Position numbers and translations under genes: made by a program. From positions 1 through 34,527 of the forward strand of contig PHEV01000021.1 in the NCBI GenBank assembly GCA_002843035.1: a DNA stretch of 34,527 bases, in the 5' to 3' direction. The DNA comes from Actinobacteria bacterium HGW-Actinobacteria-5 (GTDB taxonomy: Bacteria; Actinomycetota; Actinomycetes; Propionibacteriales; Propionibacteriaceae). The notes below the pieces were generated by a model. That model worked only from the letters and a program-made list of their open reading frames with translations, ran no database searches and had not been told where the DNA came from. Positions 11,270-17,236 of the stretch are shown here, piece after piece. Positions within the stretch are counted from its first letter, which is position 1, and each line of letters opens with the position of its first letter.

Positions 11270-12381
11270 CCAGCACCGTGCACCCGCTCACGCTCCCGGG
11301 GGAGCCTCCCGAGGAGCGGGAGTGGCGCCCCGACGGGCCCTCCCCCACCGGACTCCCTCGCCGCGCCTTCGTCGCCCAGATCATGGGGCTGCCGATGAGC
11401 GTCCACGTCCGTGGCCCGCACGCCCGCGGAGAAGCCGTCGCCGAGGCGGTCGAGCAGGCGTACGCGGAGCTGCGGGCGGACGAGGCGATGTTCAGCATCT
11501 GGCGGCCGGACAGTCCGGTCAGCCGGATCCGGGACGGACGCGACTCGCTGCGCGACGCGCATCCGCGGATCCGCCATGTCGCCTCGCTGTGCGAGCTCGC
11601 CGGCCAGCGCACCGGCGGCGCCTTCTCCGCCTGGCTCCCGGACGGCGAGAGCACGATCCGGTTCAACCCGACCGGACTGGTCAAGGGCTGGTCGGTCGAG
11701 CAGGCATTCACCGGTCTGGTCGGACGCCTGCACGACCTCGGCGCCCACGACGCCCTGATCAACGCCGGCGGCGACATCGCCGTCCACTGCGCCCGGACGG
11801 ACACGCCCGCCTGGAGGGTCGCCGTCGAGGACCCCCGTGACCGCAGCCGCCTGCTCCGCACGGCGGCGTTGCGGACCGGCGCCGTCGCCACCTCGGGGAC
11901 GGCGGCCCGCGGCCACCACATCACCGACCCGGCCACCGGCGTCCCGGCCACGGGGTTGCTCTCGGCGACCGTGATCGGCCCCGAGCTGACCTGGGCAGAC
12001 GTCTACGCCACGGCGGCCTTCGTGAAGGGCCCCACCGCAGTGGGCTGGCTGGCCACACTCCCCCGCCACGCGGGCCTCCTGGTCGGACTCGACGGCCGGG
12101 TCACCGCCGTCCAGGCCCCGTCTGAGCAACGCACCGCCTCGCGCGCGGGGTTGGCATCAGTCGAGGTCCTCGCCGGCCAGCGCGCGAGCGGCGAGCCGTT
12201 CCTCCTCGCTGACCTCCCAGACTTCCTTCGCGGCGCGCAGGGCCAGCGCGACGATGAAGCAGCCCAATGCCAGGTCGGGTATCCCGGACCCGGTCCACAC
12301 CGTCACGCCGGCCATCACGATGATCGCGGTGTTCACCAGCACGTCGTTGCGGGCCGACAGGAACGCCGCCCGGCTCAGTGA
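11266..12381 (+). CDS. apbE: ApbE-family FAD:protein FMN transferase with long C-terminal overrun
   Basis: 371-aa ORF. Family motifs: MGLPMSVHVRG near residue 40, FSAWLPDG and NPTGLVKGWSVEQA in the middle, INAGGDIAVHC (about 164-174) and TSGTAARGHHITDPATGVPA (about 208-227), the region that holds the Mg/FAD site. It transfers FMN from FAD to the Thr of the SGAT motif in the gene just upstream. No signal peptide is visible, although the target domain is predicted to be outside. The conserved part ends near residue 285. The last 75 codons run antisense over the 3' end of the convergent transporter and look non-conserved, so a native stop may have been lost. Confidence 0.88.
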   Translation: MTSTVHPLTLPGEPPEEREWRPDGPSPTGLPRRAFVAQIMGLPMSVHVRGPHARGEAVAEAVEQAYAELRADEAMFSIWRPDSPVSRIRDGRDSLRDAHPRIRHVASLCELAGQRTGGAFSAWLPDGESTIRFNPTGLVKGWSVEQAFTGLVGRLHDLGAHDALINAGGDIAVHCARTDTPAWRVAVEDPRDRSRLLRTAALRTGAVATSGTAARGHHITDPATGVPATGLLSATVIGPELTWADVYATAAFVKGPTAVGWLATLPRHAGLLVGLDGRVTAVQAPSEQRTASRAGLASVEVLAGQRASGEPFLLADLPDFLRGAQGQRDDEAAQCQVGYPGPGPHRHAGHHDDRGVHQHVVAGRQERRPAQ

Positions 12382-12801
12382 GCCGCCGTGCTGACGGACT
12401 CTCGCCAGCAGCCAGGCCGCCGTCCCGTTGACGACGATCGCGCCGAGCGACGCGAACACCACGGGCAGCACCTCCGGCGGCGTCGGGTCGCGGAACTTCT
12501 CGAACGCCTCCCAGCCGGCGAGCAGCGCAGGGCCGAGGATCAGCACGCTCATCACCTTGCCCATCACCGACCGGTGCACGAGCGGCCAGCCCAGCGCGAG
12601 GAAGATCAGCGCGTTCACCGCCGTGTCCTCGAGGAAGTCGACGCTGTCGGCGAGCAGCGCGACCGAGCCCGCGGAGAGCGCGACCGCGAACTCGACGAAG
12701 AAGTAGGCCAGGTTCAACCCGGCCACGATCAGGACCGTGCGCCGCAGCCGGCCCGGGTCGACCTGCTCCCCGGCCTCGCCGTGCGGTTCGGTTGCTGTCA
12801 C
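12157..12801 (-). CDS. CDF-like cation transporter lacking the canonical His ligands and the C-terminal domain
   Basis: 214-aa membrane protein resembling the transmembrane part of cation diffusion facilitators: helices at about 22-44, 46-75, 82-100, 112-134, 150-172 and 173-190. The helix-2 motif is LLADSVDFLEDTAVN, with Asp55 and Asp59 at the metal-site positions. Helix 5 reads FLSARNDVLVN, where Asp153 is kept but the His four residues earlier (usual HxxxD) is Ser149. The cytoplasmic C-terminal domain of classical members is absent and the protein ends in a short charged tail. The substrate is unknown; a site without His may favour Mn, Fe or another ion. The 3' end is antisense to the apbE tail. 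Confidence 0.82.
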   Translation of the reverse strand: MTATEPHGEAGEQVDPGRLRRTVLIVAGLNLAYFFVEFAVALSAGSVALLADSVDFLEDTAVNALIFLALGWPLVHRSVMGKVMSVLILGPALLAGWEAFEKFRDPTPPEVLPVVFASLGAIVVNGTAAWLLARVRQHGGSLSRAAFLSARNDVLVNTAIIVMAGVTVWTGSGIPDLALGCFIVALALRAAKEVWEVSEEERLAARALAGEDLD

Positions 12802-12873: not shown

Positions 12874-12955
12874 GTTGTCGCCATCTGGCCGCCCACCCCG
12901 TCAGCCCTGCCCCACCTGTCACACCTCGAGGCTCGGGCGGTCAGATCGCGACCGC
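12874..12955 (+). repeat. 82-nt palindromic element, copy A
   Basis: 17-nt imperfect inverted arms (12874-12890 and 12939-12955) around a 48-nt centre. The arms contain CATCTGGCC on the left and GGTCAGATCGCGACC on the right. The centre carries CTGTCACACC at the same offset as CCGTCACACC in copy B. It lies just past the 3' end of tRNA-Arg, upstream of the CDF-like gene. Confidence 0.75.
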
Positions 12956-12970
12956 CGCCCGATGTGGGTC

Positions 12971-13046
12971 TGGCGCCCCCGGCAGGACTCGAACCTGCGC
13001 ACGACAGATTAGAAGGCTGTTGCTCTATCCACTGAGCTACGGGGGC
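12971..13046 (-). tRNA. tRNA-Arg (anticodon TCT)
   Basis: 76-nt tRNA with encoded CCA (12971-12973 on the complement). The acceptor stem GCCCCCG pairs with CGGGGGC, the D arm is GCTC/GAGC, and the T arm is GCAGG/CCTGC around TTCGAGT. The anticodon loop CTTCTAA gives anticodon TCT, decoding AGA (and AGG). The discriminator base is G. The anticodon stem has one C/T mismatch next to the loop. Confidence 0.97.
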
Positions 13047-13102
13047 CGACGCAGAATCGATGGTATCTGGCCCTTGTCGGAGCCGCGATGCAGGATGGCA
13101 GC

Positions 13103-13645
13103 ATGAATACTCTCGACGTCGTGCGCGACTCGCTGGGCCGCGTCCATGAACTCATCCCGGCAGTGCTGGACGGACTCACCGGCGACGACCTGCTCTGGCG
13201 GGCCGATCCGGAGGCGAACTCGATCGGCTGGCTGATCTGGCACCTCACCCGGGTCGAGGACGACCACCTCGCCCACCTGGGCGGCGTCGAACAGGCATGG
13301 ACCGCCGACGGTTGGTACCAGCGGTTCGGGCTGCCCTACCTCAAGCAGGCCCACGGATTCCGGATGACCCCGGTCGAAGTCGGCGCCTTCAACGTCACCG
13401 ATGCCCACCTGCTCGCCGGCTACTCGGCGGCGACCTGGGAGCAGACCCGGGCCGTGCTCGCCTCGATCGCCGAGGACCGGCTCGACGAGGTGATCGACAC
13501 CCGCTACACCCCGCCGGTCACGGTCGGCGTCCGCCTCGTCTCGGTGCTGGTCGAGACCGCCCAGCACATCGGCCAGGCCGGATACGTGCGTGGCTTGCGG
13601 GAACGCAGCCGCGGTATCGACTCGGGATGGTCGGGCACCGCATGA
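13103..13645 (+). CDS. DinB-fold (DUF664-type) protein
   Basis: 180-aa soluble four-helix-bundle protein of the DinB/YfiT superfamily, DUF664-like branch. The hallmarks are an N-terminal helix (LDVVRDSLGRVHELIPAVLD), IGWLIWHLTRVEDDHLAHL with metal-ligand His47, and a late VETAQHIGQAGYVRG helix with the second His. In actinomycetes such proteins are often metal-dependent thiol (mycothiol) transferases; the substrate here is unknown. I chose the ATG at 13103, preceded by AGGA at proper distance, over an ATG 15 nt upstream. The orn gene follows in the same direction about 46 nt away. Confidence 0.88.
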   Translation: MNTLDVVRDSLGRVHELIPAVLDGLTGDDLLWRADPEANSIGWLIWHLTRVEDDHLAHLGGVEQAWTADGWYQRFGLPYLKQAHGFRMTPVEVGAFNVTDAHLLAGYSAATWEQTRAVLASIAEDRLDEVIDTRYTPPVTVGVRLVSVLVETAQHIGQAGYVRGLRERSRGIDSGWSGTA

Positions 13646-13678
13646 CCACCCGGTGGCCGGCGCCAATCCCGAACGCCG

Positions 13679-13684
13679 TAAAGT
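13679..13684 (+). promoter_or_regulatory. -10-like box of orn
   Basis: TAAAGT lies 7 nt before the GTG start of orn, and there is no Shine-Dalgarno sequence. This matches the leaderless layout seen at several other genes in the window. Confidence 0.4.
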
Positions 13685-13691
13685 AGCGCCC

Positions 13692-14321
13692 GTGAACGAA
13701 CACCTGGTGTGGGTCGACTGCGAAATGACCGGCCTCGACCTGAAAGCGGACGCCCTGATCGAGGTGGCGGCGCTGGTCACCGATTCGGAACTCAACGTGC
13801 TCGGCAACGGCATCGAGGTGGTGATCAGGCCACCCGCAGAGGCCCTTGCGCAGATGGGCGAGTTCGTCCGCACGATGCACGAGAACTCCGGGCTGTTGCC
13901 GCTGCTCGAGAACGGCATGACCATGGCAGACGCGGAGGAGGAGGTGCTCGCCTACGTGCGCGAGCACGTCCCGGAGCCCCGCAGGGCCCCGCTCGCCGGC
14001 AACACCATCGGCACCGACCGCGCATTCCTCGCCCGGGACATGCCCACCCTCGAAGGCCACGTCCACTACCGCAACGTGGACGTCTCCAGCATCAAGGAAC
14101 TGGCCCGGCGCTGGTACCCGCGCGCCTACTACAACACTCCGTCGAAGTCCGGGAACCACCGGGCGCTGGCCGATATCCGGGAGTCGATCGAGGAGCTCCG
14201 GTACTACCGCGAGGCGCTGTTCGTCGCGCCGCCCGGGCCGAACACGGACGTGCTGCGCGAGCTTGCCGCCAAACATCAGGGTTCGCTCACCGGCGAGGCG
14301 GCCGCGGCCGACGACCACTGA
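13692..14321 (+). CDS. orn: Oligoribonuclease
   Basis: 209-aa 3'-5' exonuclease that degrades 2-5 nt RNA fragments, including the c-di-GMP product pGpG, to mononucleotides. All DEDDh residues are present: Asp9 and Glu11 (WVDCEMTGLD), Asp109 (IGTDRAFL), and His156 with Asp161 (NHRALADI). The family signatures YRNVDVSSIKELARRW and NTPSKSGNHRALAD are intact. The GTG at 13692 starts the protein right at the conserved N-terminus; the upstream open frame belongs to the end of the DinB-fold gene. tRNA-His follows downstream, an arrangement I recall from other actinobacteria. Confidence 0.97.
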   Translation: MNEHLVWVDCEMTGLDLKADALIEVAALVTDSELNVLGNGIEVVIRPPAEALAQMGEFVRTMHENSGLLPLLENGMTMADAEEEVLAYVREHVPEPRRAPLAGNTIGTDRAFLARDMPTLEGHVHYRNVDVSSIKELARRWYPRAYYNTPSKSGNHRALADIRESIEELRYYREALFVAPPGPNTDVLRELAAKHQGSLTGEAAAADDH

Positions 14322-14373
14322 TTTCTGCTGTCGACCGCCGAGCCGCTAAGCTGGGCCAGCCCGAGTGGCGCAT

Positions 14374-14450
14374 GGTGGGTATAGCTCAGCTGGTAGAGCA
14401 CCTGGTTGTGGTCCAGGATGTCGCGGGTTCGAGTCCCGTTACTCACCCCA
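14374..14450 (+). tRNA. tRNA-His (anticodon GTG)
   Basis: 77-nt gene including the encoded G-1 (14374), which pairs with discriminator C73, the identity element of tRNA-His, and a genomic CCA end (14448-14450). The acceptor stem GTGGGTA/TACTCAC has one G-T pair. Anticodon stem CCTGG/CCAGG surrounds loop TTGTGGT (anticodon GTG). The T arm GCGGG/CCCGT surrounds TTCGAGT. The 198 nt after it hold no gene that I can support. Confidence 0.97.
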
Positions 14451-14648
14451 ATGGCAACCCGTCCTGGCCGGCAGATGAGTCAGGCGGGCAGCTTCATCGC
14501 CGCACCTACACCGCCGCTCCCACCAGGATTCCACCCACACTCGCGGACTCACCCCCGATCGCTCCTCAGCTCGGTCGTGCGCCCCAGGTGGACAGCCTGC
14601 GGCACGCGCCGATTCCGTTCCGCGCCGCCGACGGGCCGCAGCGGCGGT

Positions 14649-15278
14649 TCAGCCAGCGAGGTGCGCGTCCAGCCACTGGATCAGCGGACGGCAGTCCCGC
14701 CAGTCGGCTCGCACCCTTTCCAGGGCTTCCGGCGTCCCGAGCCAGTCGGGCACGCCGTGCTCAACCGTGACGAGCACGGTGCGGTACCGGAGCAGGCGGA
14801 TCCTCGGGTGCCCCGGATCGACACCGCGCGGCGCAGTCTTCAACTCCTCGCCGTGTACCTCCGCCCCGTCCTCCTCGAGCACCGCGACCATCGACGCCAG
14901 CGCCTCACCGCTGTCGTCGTCGAGCACTGCGGCGCGGTAGGCGTCCAGCTGGCCGGGCTCAGGACGCCACCAGCCCGCCCCCGCGAGCAGGCCCTGGCTG
15001 CTCACCTGCACGTACAGACCCACGCCCGGCGAGGTCGCCACCACAGCGCCCTGGTGCGTCTTGTAGGGGGTCTTGTCCGAGGAGAACCGCACGTCTCGGT
15101 AGGGACGGAACAGCTTCGCCTCCCCGAACTCGTCGGCGAGCCCGTCGCAGAGCCTCTCCATCGGCTCTCGAACGGATCGCCGCCACCGTTCCTGGTTCGC
15201 CGTCCACCAGGCGCGCTCGTTGTGCAACTCCAGCTCGGCGAAGAAGTCCACCGCGTCGACAGGGATACCCACCGGCAC
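14649..15278 (-). CDS. DUF2461 family protein
   Basis: 209-aa soluble protein of the DUF2461 family (TIGR02453 type). Family features: the N-terminal VDFFAELELHNERAWWTANQERW, the central RPYRDVRFSSDKTPYKTHQGAVV (about 58-80), and GLYVQVSSQGLLAGAGWWRPEP with the aromatic GAGWW. The biochemical function of the family is not established to my knowledge. The start is a GTG; a second in-frame GTG lies two codons later. It stands alone, divergent from the SGNH hydrolase gene. Confidence 0.9.
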   Translation of the reverse strand: MPVGIPVDAVDFFAELELHNERAWWTANQERWRRSVREPMERLCDGLADEFGEAKLFRPYRDVRFSSDKTPYKTHQGAVVATSPGVGLYVQVSSQGLLAGAGWWRPEPGQLDAYRAAVLDDDSGEALASMVAVLEEDGAEVHGEELKTAPRGVDPGHPRIRLLRYRTVLVTVEHGVPDWLGTPEALERVRADWRDCRPLIQWLDAHLAG

Positions 15279-15388
15279 ACTCTGGCATCAGGACGCACTC
15301 ACCGGAAGGGCCCACGGCGGGACAGCATCGCCGTCCGGGGCGCGGGCGCTACCGTGATTTCGCCCCGGAGTGAAAGCAGGTGGAGCAG

Positions 15389-16168
15389 ATGGCCGTTCCC
15401 TGGCGCAGGTACGTCGCGATCGGCGACTCGCTCACCGAGGGCATCGCCGACTTCGACGCGTCCGGTGAAGCGGTCGGGTGGGCGGACCGGCTCGCCCAAC
15501 TCCTCGCCAACCGGGCCGGCGAGCCCGTCCAGTACGCGAACCTCGCGATCCGCGGACGCCTCCTGAAGCCGATCCTCGACGAGCAGGTCGCCCCGGCCCT
15601 CGCACTGCAGCCCGACCTGGTCTCGCTGTGGGGCGGCGGCAATGACGTGCTGCGCCCGGACGCCGACCCGGACGCCCTCGCCGCCGCCATCGAGGAAGCC
15701 GTGGCGGGCTTCCGGGCGACCGGCGCCGACGTGCTGGTCGGGCTGGGCTTCGACCCGAAGGACTCCCCCGTGGTCAGCCTCACCCGAAAGCGGGTGGCGA
15801 TCTACAACATGAACCTCGTCAGCGTGTGCACCCGTCACGGCGCGCACGTCGTGAACACCTGGGGCCTGCGCTCGCTGCACGACTGGCGGATGTGGCACGA
15901 CGACCGGCTGCACCTGAACTCGCTCGGTCACGCCCGGGTGGCGCAGGCGGCGCTGGTCGGGCTCGGCCTGGAGCCCGACACCCCTGACTGGGACGAGCCA
16001 TTGCCGCCCGCGCCCGCAATGAGTTCGCGCGAGCGAAGGGACTGGAACATCGTCTGGGCCCGTGAGCATCTCGCGCCGTGGGTCGGCCGCAGGATCCGCC
16101 GGACCTCCTCGGGCGACGGACGCAGCGCCAAGCAGCCCACCTACCGCGACGTGCTGCCCGGCCACTGA
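15389..16168 (+). CDS. SGNH/GDSL-type esterase
   Basis: 259-aa hydrolase. Block I is AIGDSLTEG with the nucleophilic Ser near residue 13. Block II Gly is in NLAIRGR, block III is GGGND with Asn, and block V is DRLHLNSLGH, supplying Asp and His of the catalytic triad. There is no signal peptide, so it is probably cytoplasmic. It ends with a basic tail. The ATG at 15389 is preferred; a GTG three codons upstream falls inside the purine-rich AGGTGGAG that probably serves as ribosome binding site. The substrate (ester, acyl-thioester or carbohydrate acetyl) is unknown. Two palindromic repeats follow its stop. Confidence 0.9.
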   Translation: MAVPWRRYVAIGDSLTEGIADFDASGEAVGWADRLAQLLANRAGEPVQYANLAIRGRLLKPILDEQVAPALALQPDLVSLWGGGNDVLRPDADPDALAAAIEEAVAGFRATGADVLVGLGFDPKDSPVVSLTRKRVAIYNMNLVSVCTRHGAHVVNTWGLRSLHDWRMWHDDRLHLNSLGHARVAQAALVGLGLEPDTPDWDEPLPPAPAMSSRERRDWNIVWAREHLAPWVGRRIRRTSSGDGRSAKQPTYRDVLPGH

Positions 16169-16173
16169 TCGCC

Positions 16174-16255
16174 GCTGTCGCGATCTGGCCACCGCCCCGA
16201 TCCCAGCCGTCACGCCCGTCACACCGGACGCCGGAAGCGGCCGGATTGCGACACG
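16174..16255 (+). repeat. 82-nt palindromic element, copy B
   Basis: Arms GCTGTCGCGATCTGGCC (16174-16190) and its near-complement starting GGCCGGATTGCGACA (16239-16255), around a 48-nt centre containing CCGTCACGCCCGTCACA. It begins 6 nt after the stop of the SGNH gene, in the same orientation as copy A. Confidence 0.85.
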
Positions 16256-16313
16256 CGAGCCGGAAGAGTGGCAGGCGGGTCGGCAGGCAACCGCCCAGGC
16301 GGCAGCGTGCGGC

Positions 16314-16395
16314 GCTGTCGCGATCTGGCCGCCGTGCCGCCGTGCTGTGACGGGAGTGACGGGTGGGTTGCGGAACGTGGCCAGATCCCGACAAG
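16314..16395 (-). repeat. 82-nt palindromic element, copy C (inverted)
   Basis: Left arm (16314-16330) is identical over 17 nt to that of copy B. Right arm (16379-16395) is GGCCAGATCCCGACAAG. Its centre matches copies A and B only when reverse-complemented (CCGTCACTCCCGTCACA at the same offset), so it lies in the opposite orientation. 58 nt separate it from copy B, within the gap between two convergent genes. Confidence 0.85.
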
Positions 16396-16416: not shown

Positions 16417-16908
16417 TCAGCCCTCGGCAAGCAGGGCGTCGATCTGGTTCGTGGCGAGGGTGGCGCCTTCCTCCATGCCCATCTCGAGCACCTGCTGCAG
16501 GGCTTCGGGAGTCTCGTAGGTGGTCGTGAAGACCGCGCGCGTGCCGGAGGCGGTGGGCTCTAGGGTGAACTCCGACGTCGAGACCGGCATGCCCGGCGTG
16601 GGCGTGAACGACTCATCGCCGGCGAAGAAGTCCTCGAAGGTGAATCGGTGCGGCTCCTCGACCGCGAGCACACGCCAGCCGCCGTAGTACTTCTCACCCT
16701 CCGGAGAGGTCATGTAGTAGTGCATCCGCCCACCCGGGGTGAGCGAGTGCTCGACCACGGTGGCGGGGTGGGTCGGCGGCCCCCACACCCGCTCCAGCTG
16801 GCGAGGATCGGCGTACACCTGCCAGACCCGCTCCACGGAGGCGGCGAACTCTGCGGTGATGACCAGCGAACGGGCGTCGAGGTCCTTGGTGACGTTGGTG
16901 ACGGGCAT
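16417..16908 (-). CDS. SRPBCC (AHSA1/START-like) domain protein
   Basis: 163-aa protein of the AHSA1-like SRPBCC superfamily, a helix-grip fold with a hydrophobic cavity. Typical segments are VITAEFAASVERVWQVYADP at the start, LERVWGPPTHPATVVEHSL, GGRMHYYMTSPEGEKYYGGW, and the C-terminal helix ALQQVLEMGMEEGATLATNQ. AGGAGG precedes the ATG at 16908 by 6 nt, so the in-frame codons further upstream are not used. It follows the ArsR gene by one base. This ArsR-SRPBCC pairing is very common in actinomycetes; the ligand is unknown. Confidence 0.93.
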   Translation of the reverse strand: MPVTNVTKDLDARSLVITAEFAASVERVWQVYADPRQLERVWGPPTHPATVVEHSLTPGGRMHYYMTSPEGEKYYGGWRVLAVEEPHRFTFEDFFAGDESFTPTPGMPVSTSEFTLEPTASGTRAVFTTTYETPEALQQVLEMGMEEGATLATNQIDALLAEG

Positions 16909-16909
16909 A

Positions 16910-17236
16910 TCAGTCCTCCTGGATGAGTTCATCAATTCGTGCAATCCGGCCGCGCCAGACGTCCTCGAGCTCGGTGAGCATCGATGCGACCGAACGCAGC
17001 GCCTCCACGTCGCCGCTGGCCAGCTGTTCGCGACCCTGACGCCGCTTGGACAGCAGGCCGGCCCTCTCGAGGACGGCGACGTGCTTCTGCACCGCGGCGA
17101 AGCTCATCGGGTAGCTCGCCGCAAGCGCCGTGACCGAATGCTCTCCGGCCAGCACCCGCCGCAGGATGTCGCGCCTGGTGCGGTCGGCGAGGGCGTGGAA
17201 GAACGCGTCCGCCCGGTCCTCGTCCGCTTCAATCAC
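16910..17236 (-). CDS. ArsR-family transcriptional repressor
   Basis: 108-aa winged-helix regulator. The core is HALADRTRRDILRRVLAGEHS, then the recognition helix in YPMSFAAVQKHVAVLERAGLL, then the wing SKRRQGREQLASG, with a C-terminal dimerisation helix. There are no Cys residues, so it is not a classical metal sensor. It belongs to the group paired with SRPBCC proteins. I start it at the GTG at 17236 because a TATGTT box sits exactly 6 nt upstream (leaderless). An upstream in-frame TTG lies inside the operator. It is divergent from murT and likely represses its own operon through the inverted repeat. Confidence 0.92.
   Translation of the reverse strand: MIEADEDRADAFFHALADRTRRDILRRVLAGEHSVTALAASYPMSFAAVQKHVAVLERAGLLSKRRQGREQLASGDVEALRSVASMLTELEDVWRGRIARIDELIQED

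Follow-up and report, generated by a model that had tools for sequence, protein, structure and literature searches.

A dispersed family of 82-nt palindromes in Actinomycetota and a predicted AbiEi-DUF559 partner protein

Known systems and how the present locus compares

Short intergenic palindromes that are dispersed through the genome, form inverted doublets and have an enzyme gene beside them, with a matching family for each enzyme, are known from REPIN/RAYT systems (PMC3116915, in the part of the paper available). The same traits are found in a palindrome family with three copies in a 34,527-nt stretch of DNA (the window) from Actinobacteria bacterium HGW-Actinobacteria-5 (GCA_002843035.1, contig PHEV01000021.1). 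The enzymes differ: in REPIN/RAYT it is a Y1/HUH transposase, here it is an AbiEi-DUF559 protein with a predicted Vsr-like fold.

Type IV antitoxins are similar in another respect. The promoters of AbiEi and Rv2827c contain 23-bp inverted repeats, with gaps of 3 or 13 bp, to which the proteins themselves bind (PMC7319586, available part). In our case the AbiEi antitoxin structure 6y8q is the best fold match and inverted repeats stand before the protein's own gene. Gaps of 3 and 13 bp are about one helical turn apart (PMC7319586, same part), and three of the four '-+' gaps described below are 3, 3 and 13 nt. Unlike in AbiEi and Rv2827c, a nuclease-like domain is joined to the DNA-binding part in the present protein, and copies of the inverted repeats are scattered over the genome. 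The neighbours of the gene at this locus are tig and clpP. The homing endonuclease I-Bth0305I shares the fold of its catalytic domain with our protein (3r3p, TMt 0.73, E 2.2e-3) and matches it weakly in sequence (E 0.0038), whereas the present gene stands free between tig and clpP, and the repeats on its flanks have tens of copies elsewhere. Finally, bacterial MITEs resemble the non-coding doublets of about 225 bp with inverted ends, of which at least one subfamily is apparently dispersed. They differ in that the ends are here 82-bp composite palindromes, the gene-bearing version encodes nothing recognised as a transposase, and inspection by eye revealed no target duplication.

In a literature search that left subscription journals and bioRxiv mostly outside, we found no description of such a partnership in the source parts available and did not find DUF559 and AbiEi together; among the matches listed, going by titles and the starts of abstracts, none linked DUF559 to dispersed palindromes.

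The palindrome family and its doublets

The initial annotation of the window had proposed three palindromic elements of exactly 82 nt, lying between genes and occurring in both orientations, and all of this holds. Element A (12874-12955, plus strand) has a 78-nt core at 12876-12953 with inverted arms (own-genome profile E 1.4e-16). It lies between the 3' end of a tRNA-Arg (12971-13046, minus strand) and the 5' end of the minus-strand ORF 12157-12801, and no partner element was found within 400 nt. Elements B (16174-16255, plus; core 16176-16253; E 7.2e-16) and C (16314-16395, minus; core 16316-16393; E 4.3e-17) lie between the convergent ORFs 15380-16168 (plus) and 16417-16944 (minus). The first of these, going by its GDSLTEG motif, is presumably an SGNH/GDSL-hydrolase-like gene, and the second we take to be START/AHSA1-like. 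B and C have an identical 17-nt left arm, GCTGTCGCGATCTGGCC. The mismatches of the two arms to TGTCGCGATCTGGCC are 1 and 2 in A, 0 and 2 in B, and 0 and 1 in C. After reverse complementation C is identical to A at 54 and to B at 55 of 82 positions, directly at only 42 and 48, while A and B agree at 51 of 82 directly and at 46 reversed. The asymmetric centre of B (16200-16223, plus, converted from alignment columns 28-51) corresponds to a family consensus with GTCMC-like repeats at 9-nt spacing (columns 28, 37 and 46). The window by itself supports the arm pattern weakly, as 4 of 100 shuffles also reach the 7 matches found at up to three mismatches.

The initial annotation had suggested searching the genome for further copies, and many were found. 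With up to two mismatches the arm pattern gives 70 matches in the own genome against 9 for the reversed control. A sequence-only profile gives at least 37 distinct places at E ≤ 1.5e-7, a lower bound because 150 of 10088 first-look candidates were scored; the profile was built from 25 of 26 seed copies (one left out), whose places match by construction. Family copies are about 61% alike and have a common 78-nt core with arms TGTCGCGATCYGGCC; this layout comes from 107 copies, all inside fetched loci, and from a gapless profile that favours exact length. Mean identity within a genome is 0.61, equal to that of independent columns, and copies within a genome are mostly old. Profile matches are numerous in only three of 60 genomes, namely the own genome (G000, at least 70), G012 (at least 67) and G017 (at least 75), with 0-6 in the other 57 (matches on both strands, from no more than 75 scored candidates in each genome). 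The copy in G026 was left out of the three-genome comparisons. By crude gene calls, 63 of 75 element positions (clusters and single copies) are outside genes. Six cluster pairs share a well-conserved neighbour gene between species, besides tig-clpP.

Copies that are neighbours within 400 nt are always inverted, 28 as '+-' and 4 as '-+', with none in the same direction; together with the intergenic positions this agrees with the doublets of REPIN/RAYT. B and C form one such inverted doublet, which the initial annotation had missed, with B as its left and C as its right half. The gap between their 84-column blocks is 56 nt (16257-16312) and is in the common helical phase. Set against REPIN/RAYT, this phasing is a distinguishing trait. 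More specifically, '+-' gaps recur with a period of about 10.7 bp (for 26 doublets R is 0.82 at 10.5 bp, p~2.5e-8, and peaks with 0.83 at 10.7 bp; only gaps below 150 nt were used, which excludes two of 192 and 368 nt). None of 20000 jittered sets reaches the observed R, and after collapsing kin to 23 doublets R is 0.88. The '-+' gaps are 3, 3, 13 and 74 nt. As raw counts from crude gene calls, 13 of 26 '+-' doublets lie between convergent genes, 8 in tandem and 5 in divergent gaps.

Selection on structure, as suggested in the initial annotation, is not borne out. None of the 17 arm base pairs (columns 4-20) pairs above the independent-column expectation at p<0.05 in the 107 copies; three of these pairs never vary and are uninformative on covariation. 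Thus arm pairing is not kept by compensatory change, in contrast to REPINs, where such changes are described as common (PMC3116915, available part). Two of ten inner pairs have a covariation signal at p 0.02-0.03, and no Rfam family was found on the elements at gathering score. Since covariation is absent from the arms, they look like sequence that is read in duplex DNA, conserved position by position. Together with the helical phasing this supports the protein-binding palindrome that had been offered as one possibility.

The mobile miniature element, offered as another, is supported too, and both readings may be true. Five doublets in the relative G012 (L111, L113, L114, L115 and L119) look like dispersed copies of one unit of about 225 bp, homologous over the whole length as in MITEs: in the best pairs their modules agree to 80-87%, where the mean is 61%, the spacers can be aligned and the outer flanks are unlike. 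Spacer similarity, compared in four of them with L119 left out, gives z 9.4 for L111-L114, 4.5 for L111-L115, 4.0 for L111-L113 and 2.8 for L113-L115; the other two of the six pairs have z of 2.1 or less and are not among the 18 best. Among outer flanks, taken as control, 3 of 117 pairs have z>4 (maximum 5.9), and the similarity is strong for the pair L111-L114 only. By eye, no target-site duplication is seen in the flanks of the G012 doublets, whose unit boundaries are uncertain. A clean excision was not found either: at the B/C site of G024 the same neighbours enclose a different spacer of about 130 nt and no precise empty site. Two further ideas were rejected. The doublet spacer is not similar to the leader of the nuclease gene, of which it might have been a remnant (best z 1.8), and element-gene-element is not a general cargo cassette, as the two other long gaps examined hold unrelated genes, presumably a lipoprotein-like gene in L091 and PadR-like and membrane-like genes in L093.

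The gene between tig and clpP and its matched palindromes

One gene, which lies beyond the window and is absent from the initial annotation, goes with the family. In the own genome this gene (G000:C5:22741-23586) lies between tig and clpP with elements on both flanks, the 5' module 57 nt before the start codon, and G012 and G017 carry it there too, likewise with one module on either flank. Its product joins an AbiEi-like DNA-binding part to a domain that is DUF559/Vsr/homing-endonuclease-like. Pfam gives a DUF559/MTES_1575 match and no transposase domain; the Pfam entry describes DUF559 as a protein of unknown function. At E ≤ 0.1, 23 of 24 homologues match DUF559, 18 the PADLOC profile of AbiEi and 10 that of Hhe. 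The predicted structure of the G017 homologue (pLDDT 89.7) matches the AbiEi antitoxin 6y8q best, as the sole PDB entry under 0.001 (E 1.6e-4), followed by I-Bth0305I (3r3p) and Vsr (1vsr), among others. In the 24 sequences E184, D215 and D242 are invariant, and E226, D228 and H233 occur in 90% or more. These acidic residues and the model point to a putative Vsr-like/PD-(D/E)XK catalytic domain. Homologues at E ≤ 1e-20 are present in 39 of 197 sampled Actinomycetota genomes, and a single genome has as many as 10, with no more than 12 candidates scored in each.

The gene is absent at tig-clpP in G024, G026 and G001, all three among carriers in the tig tree, where the support of the two groups used is moderate (82/94 and 94/88). 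Occupied and unoccupied loci thus both exist. The 82-nt family is nearly absent in these three relatives (2, 6 and 1 profile matches, respectively); the counts rest on draft genomes, that of G024 being 72% complete. Despite the empty locus, G024 and G001 have more distant DUF559 homologues elsewhere. G026 has none at E ≤ 1e-10 and keeps at least one clean module.

Similar genes are flanked by matched palindromes of their own in other genera. We tested 30 homologues, 28 from the main search (only matches with a locus were entered) and L295 and L302 of 17 further loci, for palindromes matched on both flanks. In this test, which was not on fresh data because it was designed after many flanks were known, 12 of 30 DUF559 genes and 3 of 202 control genes have such a pair with 12 mismatches or fewer (Fisher 8e-10), and at a score of 10 or less the counts are 8 of 30 and 0 of 202. 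If the founding clade's four genes are taken out, 9 of 26 (1.4e-7) and 7 of 26 (1.1e-7) remain at the two cut-offs. All cut-offs from 10 to 18 were tried, and the contrast fades at looser ones (16 of 30 against 64 of 202 at 17, p 0.024; p 0.11 at 18); a rank test gives p 2.6e-4. An earlier, looser flank test had given 17 of 28 against 33 of 195. Note that 18 of the 30 homologues miss score 12, and that the G012 gene (L152) fails, though the profile finds its modules. Of the 12 flanked genes, 8 have the 5' module 52-58 nt ahead of the start and 4 have it 86-95 nt ahead. In 10 of them the 3' module lies between -17 and +7 nt relative to the last sense codon, and in the other 2 it lies at +136 and +144; the +136 gene (L162) has a further module at about +5. 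Outside the order, 29 loci were taken, two of which were too short and were dropped; 3 of the 27 scored reach 10 or less (L214, L219 and L220), 4 reach 12 or less, and 4 gave no pair. Among the homologues from outside the order L210 and L211 score best as homologues; they do not appear among the both-flank scores of 13 or less.

Dispersed matched arms are present in three other genera. Counting also the arms that flank the gene, own arms give 13 matches in G033, 20 in G034 and 26 in Micropruina sp. SSC1, against 1 for the reversed control in each, and two-armed copies are mostly 100, 96-97 and 79-81 nt long, respectively. Two-armed 76-nt copies lie away from the gene in G015, G021, G025 and G028; counts of single arms of this pattern exceed the control only modestly in several genomes and fall short of it in G008 (15 vs 17). 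As one more dispersed family G018 and G003 are weak, their 24 and 17 matches comparing with 12 and 6 in controls.

Interpretation and alternatives

We give a probability of roughly 0.6 to the reading that the palindromes are duplex-DNA recognition modules of a dispersed non-autonomous family, predicted to have the AbiEi-DUF559 nuclease-like protein as partner. The best reading of the likenesses is a REPIN/RAYT-like partnership built on an unrelated nuclease. We infer that the protein binds the arms and cuts, and that cutting drives copying. The AbiEi-like part would bind the inverted arms of one module cooperatively, and two inverted modules on the same helix face would be bridged into one complex. 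The Vsr/homing-endonuclease-like domain could then nick or cut at the module ends, and repair would copy the doublet (module-spacer-module, about 225 bp) into new intergenic sites. The module 5' of the gene is probably also an autoregulatory operator. More broadly, this may be an undescribed class of mobile or persistent DNA system of Actinomycetota. A stand-alone AbiEi-DUF559 protein would recognise and bridge its own modules of fixed length and spread them as helically phased inverted doublets, and enzyme and modules would co-evolve as matched pairs across genera, perhaps classes; the chances of this seem to us evenly balanced.

Alternatively, the protein might bridge phased modules in order to fold or insulate intergenic DNA, without being a mobility enzyme, the sites being selected and decaying once the protein is lost. 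The helical phasing, site-by-site conservation without arm covariation, the age of most copies, the share of '+-' doublets in convergent gaps and the near-absence of the family where the gene is missing all agree with such a role. Few element positions share neighbour genes between species, however, one doublet subfamily looks dispersed as a unit and in several genera the flanks of the gene resemble those of a mobile unit; the conserved nuclease-like domain would also be left unexplained. We consider this role possible and rather doubtful.

It is unlikely that the palindromes are ordinary MITE or REP repeats moved by a known transposase, with the link to DUF559 due to hitch-hiking or target preference. 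REPs and MITEs are indeed intergenic and often occur in pairs, and in many bacteria transposase genes have REPs on their flanks (PMC3733652 and PMC3116915, available parts). Yet here genes of one kind have different palindrome families beside them in several genera, the 82-nt family nearly vanishes where the tig-clpP gene is missing, and that gene has no transposase domain in Pfam.

A structured RNA or bidirectional terminator selected for folding is very improbable. Single copies with 6-nt flanks do fold well in silico (raw MFE -42.6 to -56.8 kcal/mol) and many adjoin gene ends, but the covariation and Rfam results speak against the structured RNA that the initial annotation had also listed, and so does the periodicity near 10.7 bp, because it is a property of duplex DNA. 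Doublets occur in convergent, tandem and divergent gaps, and therefore a pure terminator role is ruled out. That the modules mark the host chromosome while the AbiEi-DUF559 protein attacks unmarked DNA is hardly credible either, since the PADLOC matches that suggest defence may reflect shared domains only, and modules that flank the gene at repeated distances and form phased doublets speak against it.

If the broader reading of a separate class of system is true, the REPIN/RAYT way of life would have arisen in a second form, one that cuts duplex DNA where REPIN/RAYT relies on single-strand hairpin chemistry. If AbiEi-DUF559 fusions do act with dispersed palindromes as partners, some members of the DUF559 family would gain a function, REP-like repeats would be linked to a second kind of enzyme, and the helical phase of the doublets would offer a sharp and cheap handle on the mechanism. 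The matched pairs of gene and repeat also form a natural series from which to learn how AbiEi-type domains recognise DNA.

An 82-nt palindrome family and its conserved features

The three 82-nt palindromes reported for the window in the initial annotation (A, 12874-12955; B, 16174-16255; C, 16314-16395) are present as described, and the search for further copies in their own genome (Actinobacteria bacterium HGW-Actinobacteria-5, G000) revealed a family. At up to two mismatches the arm pattern gives 70 matches in 3.84 Mb (295 contigs) as compared to 9 for the reversed pattern. A sequence-only profile, built from 25 G000 copies that match by construction, recognizes at least 37 distinct places at E ≤ 1.5e-7 among the best 150 of 10088 candidates. 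The gapless layout of 107 copies, or modules, comprises 35 from G000, 34 and 37 from the compared genomes G012 and G017, and one from G026. The module core is TGTCGCGATCYGGCC at the start with its inverted partner 78 nt further on, and the centre consensus has GTCCC at column 28, a GTCAC-like motif at 37 and GTCAC at 46.

Mean identity between the copies is 0.61, the value given by independent columns. Watson–Crick agreement between the arms also equals the independent expectation: none of the 17 arm pairs covaries at p < 0.05 (three never vary), and 2 of the 10 inner pairs reach p 0.02–0.03. Selection on structure, as had been suggested, is therefore not supported. Since the arms agree no better than independent columns, each arm appears to be kept separately as sequence, and the hairpin would not be the conserved trait. 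With arm pairs that do not covary, we rejected an RNA family as a reading of the palindromes.

Gene calls around the elements are crude and the genomes are mostly drafts. The G026 module of this layout (L063; G026:C52:16441-16522) combines arms that are close to perfect with a centre unlike the others, and the rough gene calls place it within a reading frame. In this genome, where no partner gene was detected, it may be an orphan or a young arrival.

Doublets, helical phase and apparent spread

Among neighbouring copies up to 400 nt apart in the fetched loci, 28 pairs are oriented '+-', 4 '-+' and none in the same direction. Elements B and C form one such '+-' doublet, with a gap of 56 nt. Gaps below 150 nt (26 '+-' pairs) cluster at about 35, 45, 56, 67, 77 and 89 nt; at 10.5 bp R is 0.82 (p ~2.5e-8), its maximum being 0.83 at 10.7. 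None of 20000 jittered sets attains the observed value, and leaving out likely kin gives R at 10.5 of 0.88 (n = 23) or 0.87 (n = 21). The natural explanation is a pair of duplex-bound proteins that have to face one another; an insertion step sensitive to phase would serve equally well.

Five G012 doublets, whose modules are 80–87% alike in the best pairs, align across both modules and the spacer and not across the outer flanks. Spacer similarity has z 9.4 for one pair and is weak to modest for the others, the outer-flank control being imperfect (3 of 117 pairs exceed z 4). As modules and spacers align and outer flanks do not, the doublet looks like the unit of spread, one that would move seldom. 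At the B/C site of G024 no clean empty site was found: the neighbour genes are the same, and the different spacer has, by eye, its own hairpin.

Several neighbourhoods deserve mention. In G017, two modules (L093; G017:C140:5808-7233) enclose a PadR-like and membrane-like gene pair between what we take to be LacI-like and glucosidase-like genes, and in G000 a single module (G000:C245:9108-9189) lies between the same outer neighbours; cargo capture or loss is possible from this comparison. One G012 doublet (L119:2266-2457, contig C12) has a spacer with long C and G runs, which is either genuinely G-rich or misassembled, and another (L111, contig C4) is abutted, just left of 2108, by a long near-perfect, terminator-like hairpin (GATTGGGGACGGTTCC...). 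At window 13693-14450 a presumably oligoribonuclease-like gene adjoins tRNA-His; in G002 (L278) a tRNA-His-like sequence, seen by eye, directly follows an SGNH-like gene.

The putative partner gene and its flanks

Three long-gap pairs, one each in G000, G017 and G012, enclose a gene of ~285 aa between tig and clpP (in G000, C5:22741-23586, outside the window). Pfam finds DUF559 above and MTES_1575 REase below cut-off. For the G017 protein (61% identical to that of G000) the predicted model (pLDDT 89.7, pTM 0.75) best matches the fold of AbiEi antitoxin (6y8q, E 1.6e-4); among the weaker matches are I-Bth0305I, a homing endonuclease (3r3p; TMt 0.73, E 2.2e-3), as well as Vsr (1vsr, E 0.01). All 24 sequences compared share E184, D215 and D242, and nearly all of them have E226, D228 and H233. 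The leaders of the G000 and G012 genes start with ACAG. At L290:2940-2949 and L291:2941-2950, TCATCCACAG, which in our view resembles a DnaA box, overlaps the 5' module end and extends beyond the module ahead of the gene.

The gene is present in G000, G012, G017 and G027 and absent from G024, G026 and G001, where the locus itself was recovered; there tig and clpP lie 383, 410 and 1068 nt apart, respectively, versus 1286-1310 nt in G000, G012 and G017, and the G001 gap contains, by eye, a different reading frame. Profile matches, counted in at most 75 best candidates per genome, follow the gene: at least 70, 67 and 75 in G000, G012 and G017 versus 2, 6 and 1 in G024, G026 and G001. G027 has the gene at 53% identity, one profile match, and flanking modules of 77 and 78 nt with diverged arms. 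More distantly related DUF559 homologues occur in G024 and G001; at E ≤ 1e-10 none is found in G026. The tig tree groups carriers with non-carriers ((G000,G024) 98/96; (G026,G012) 82/94; (G001,G027) 100/98), so three losses would be the simplest account, the alternative being repeated gain at one site.

Palindromes with their own arms and almost the same length lie on both sides of several other homologues: 76/77 nt in G025, 76/76 in G028, 100/100 in G033, 96/97 in G034, 81/81 in G035, 77/77 in G010 and G023, and 61/61 in G032. In a both-flank test designed after inspection of many of these flanks, 12 of 30 homologues have ≤12 mismatches (18 miss this score) versus 3 of 202 control genes; without the founding clade it is 9 of 26. 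At ≤18 the contrast fades (18/30 versus 87/202). Of 27 loci scored from outside the order, 3 have ≤10 mismatches; these are L214, L219 and L220, individual homologues with matched flanking palindromes in genomes of the same phylum. For the 12 genes with the best flanks, the distance from the end of the 5' module to the start is 52-58 nt in 8 and 86-95 nt in 4, and the 3' module lies -17 to +7 nt from the frame end in 10. G084 and G176 of this phylum have 10 AbiEi-DUF559 homologues each among the best 12 candidates scored.

Own-arm matches, gene-flanking ones included, number 13 in G033, 20 in G034 and 26 in Micropruina sp. SSC1, versus 1 in each control. G015, G021, G025 and G028 have one or a few two-armed 76-nt copies at sites other than the gene, with single-arm counts just 2.5 to 4 times control, and G018/G003 arm dispersal is weak.

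A proposed role for the AbiEi-DUF559 protein

AbiEi and Rv2827c each bind ahead of their own gene, at inverted repeats separated by 3 and 13 bp (PMC7319586), which makes arm binding by the N-terminal AbiEi-like part the natural proposal. Phased bridging of two modules would follow from it, and the nuclease-like domain would be the likely motor, copying by repair. We put at about 0.6 the probability that, as these sequence comparisons suggest, the protein recognizes, bridges and spreads the modules. A bridging protein that organizes DNA and does not mobilize it would account for the helical phasing and for the dependence of the family on the gene; however, it leaves the dispersed doublet subfamily and the nuclease-like domain unexplained, and we consider it rather improbable. 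That the family is a classical MITE is not shown.

A literature link between DUF559 and such repeats was not found among the open-access papers listed, subscription papers and preprints lying outside the search. The REPIN/RAYT system, in which REP doublets go with REP-associated tyrosine transposases, differs in that the partner enzyme here is of another class and that compensating changes in the arms are absent from the 107 copies, but the partnership of palindrome and gene would work similarly (PMC3116915, PMC3733652).
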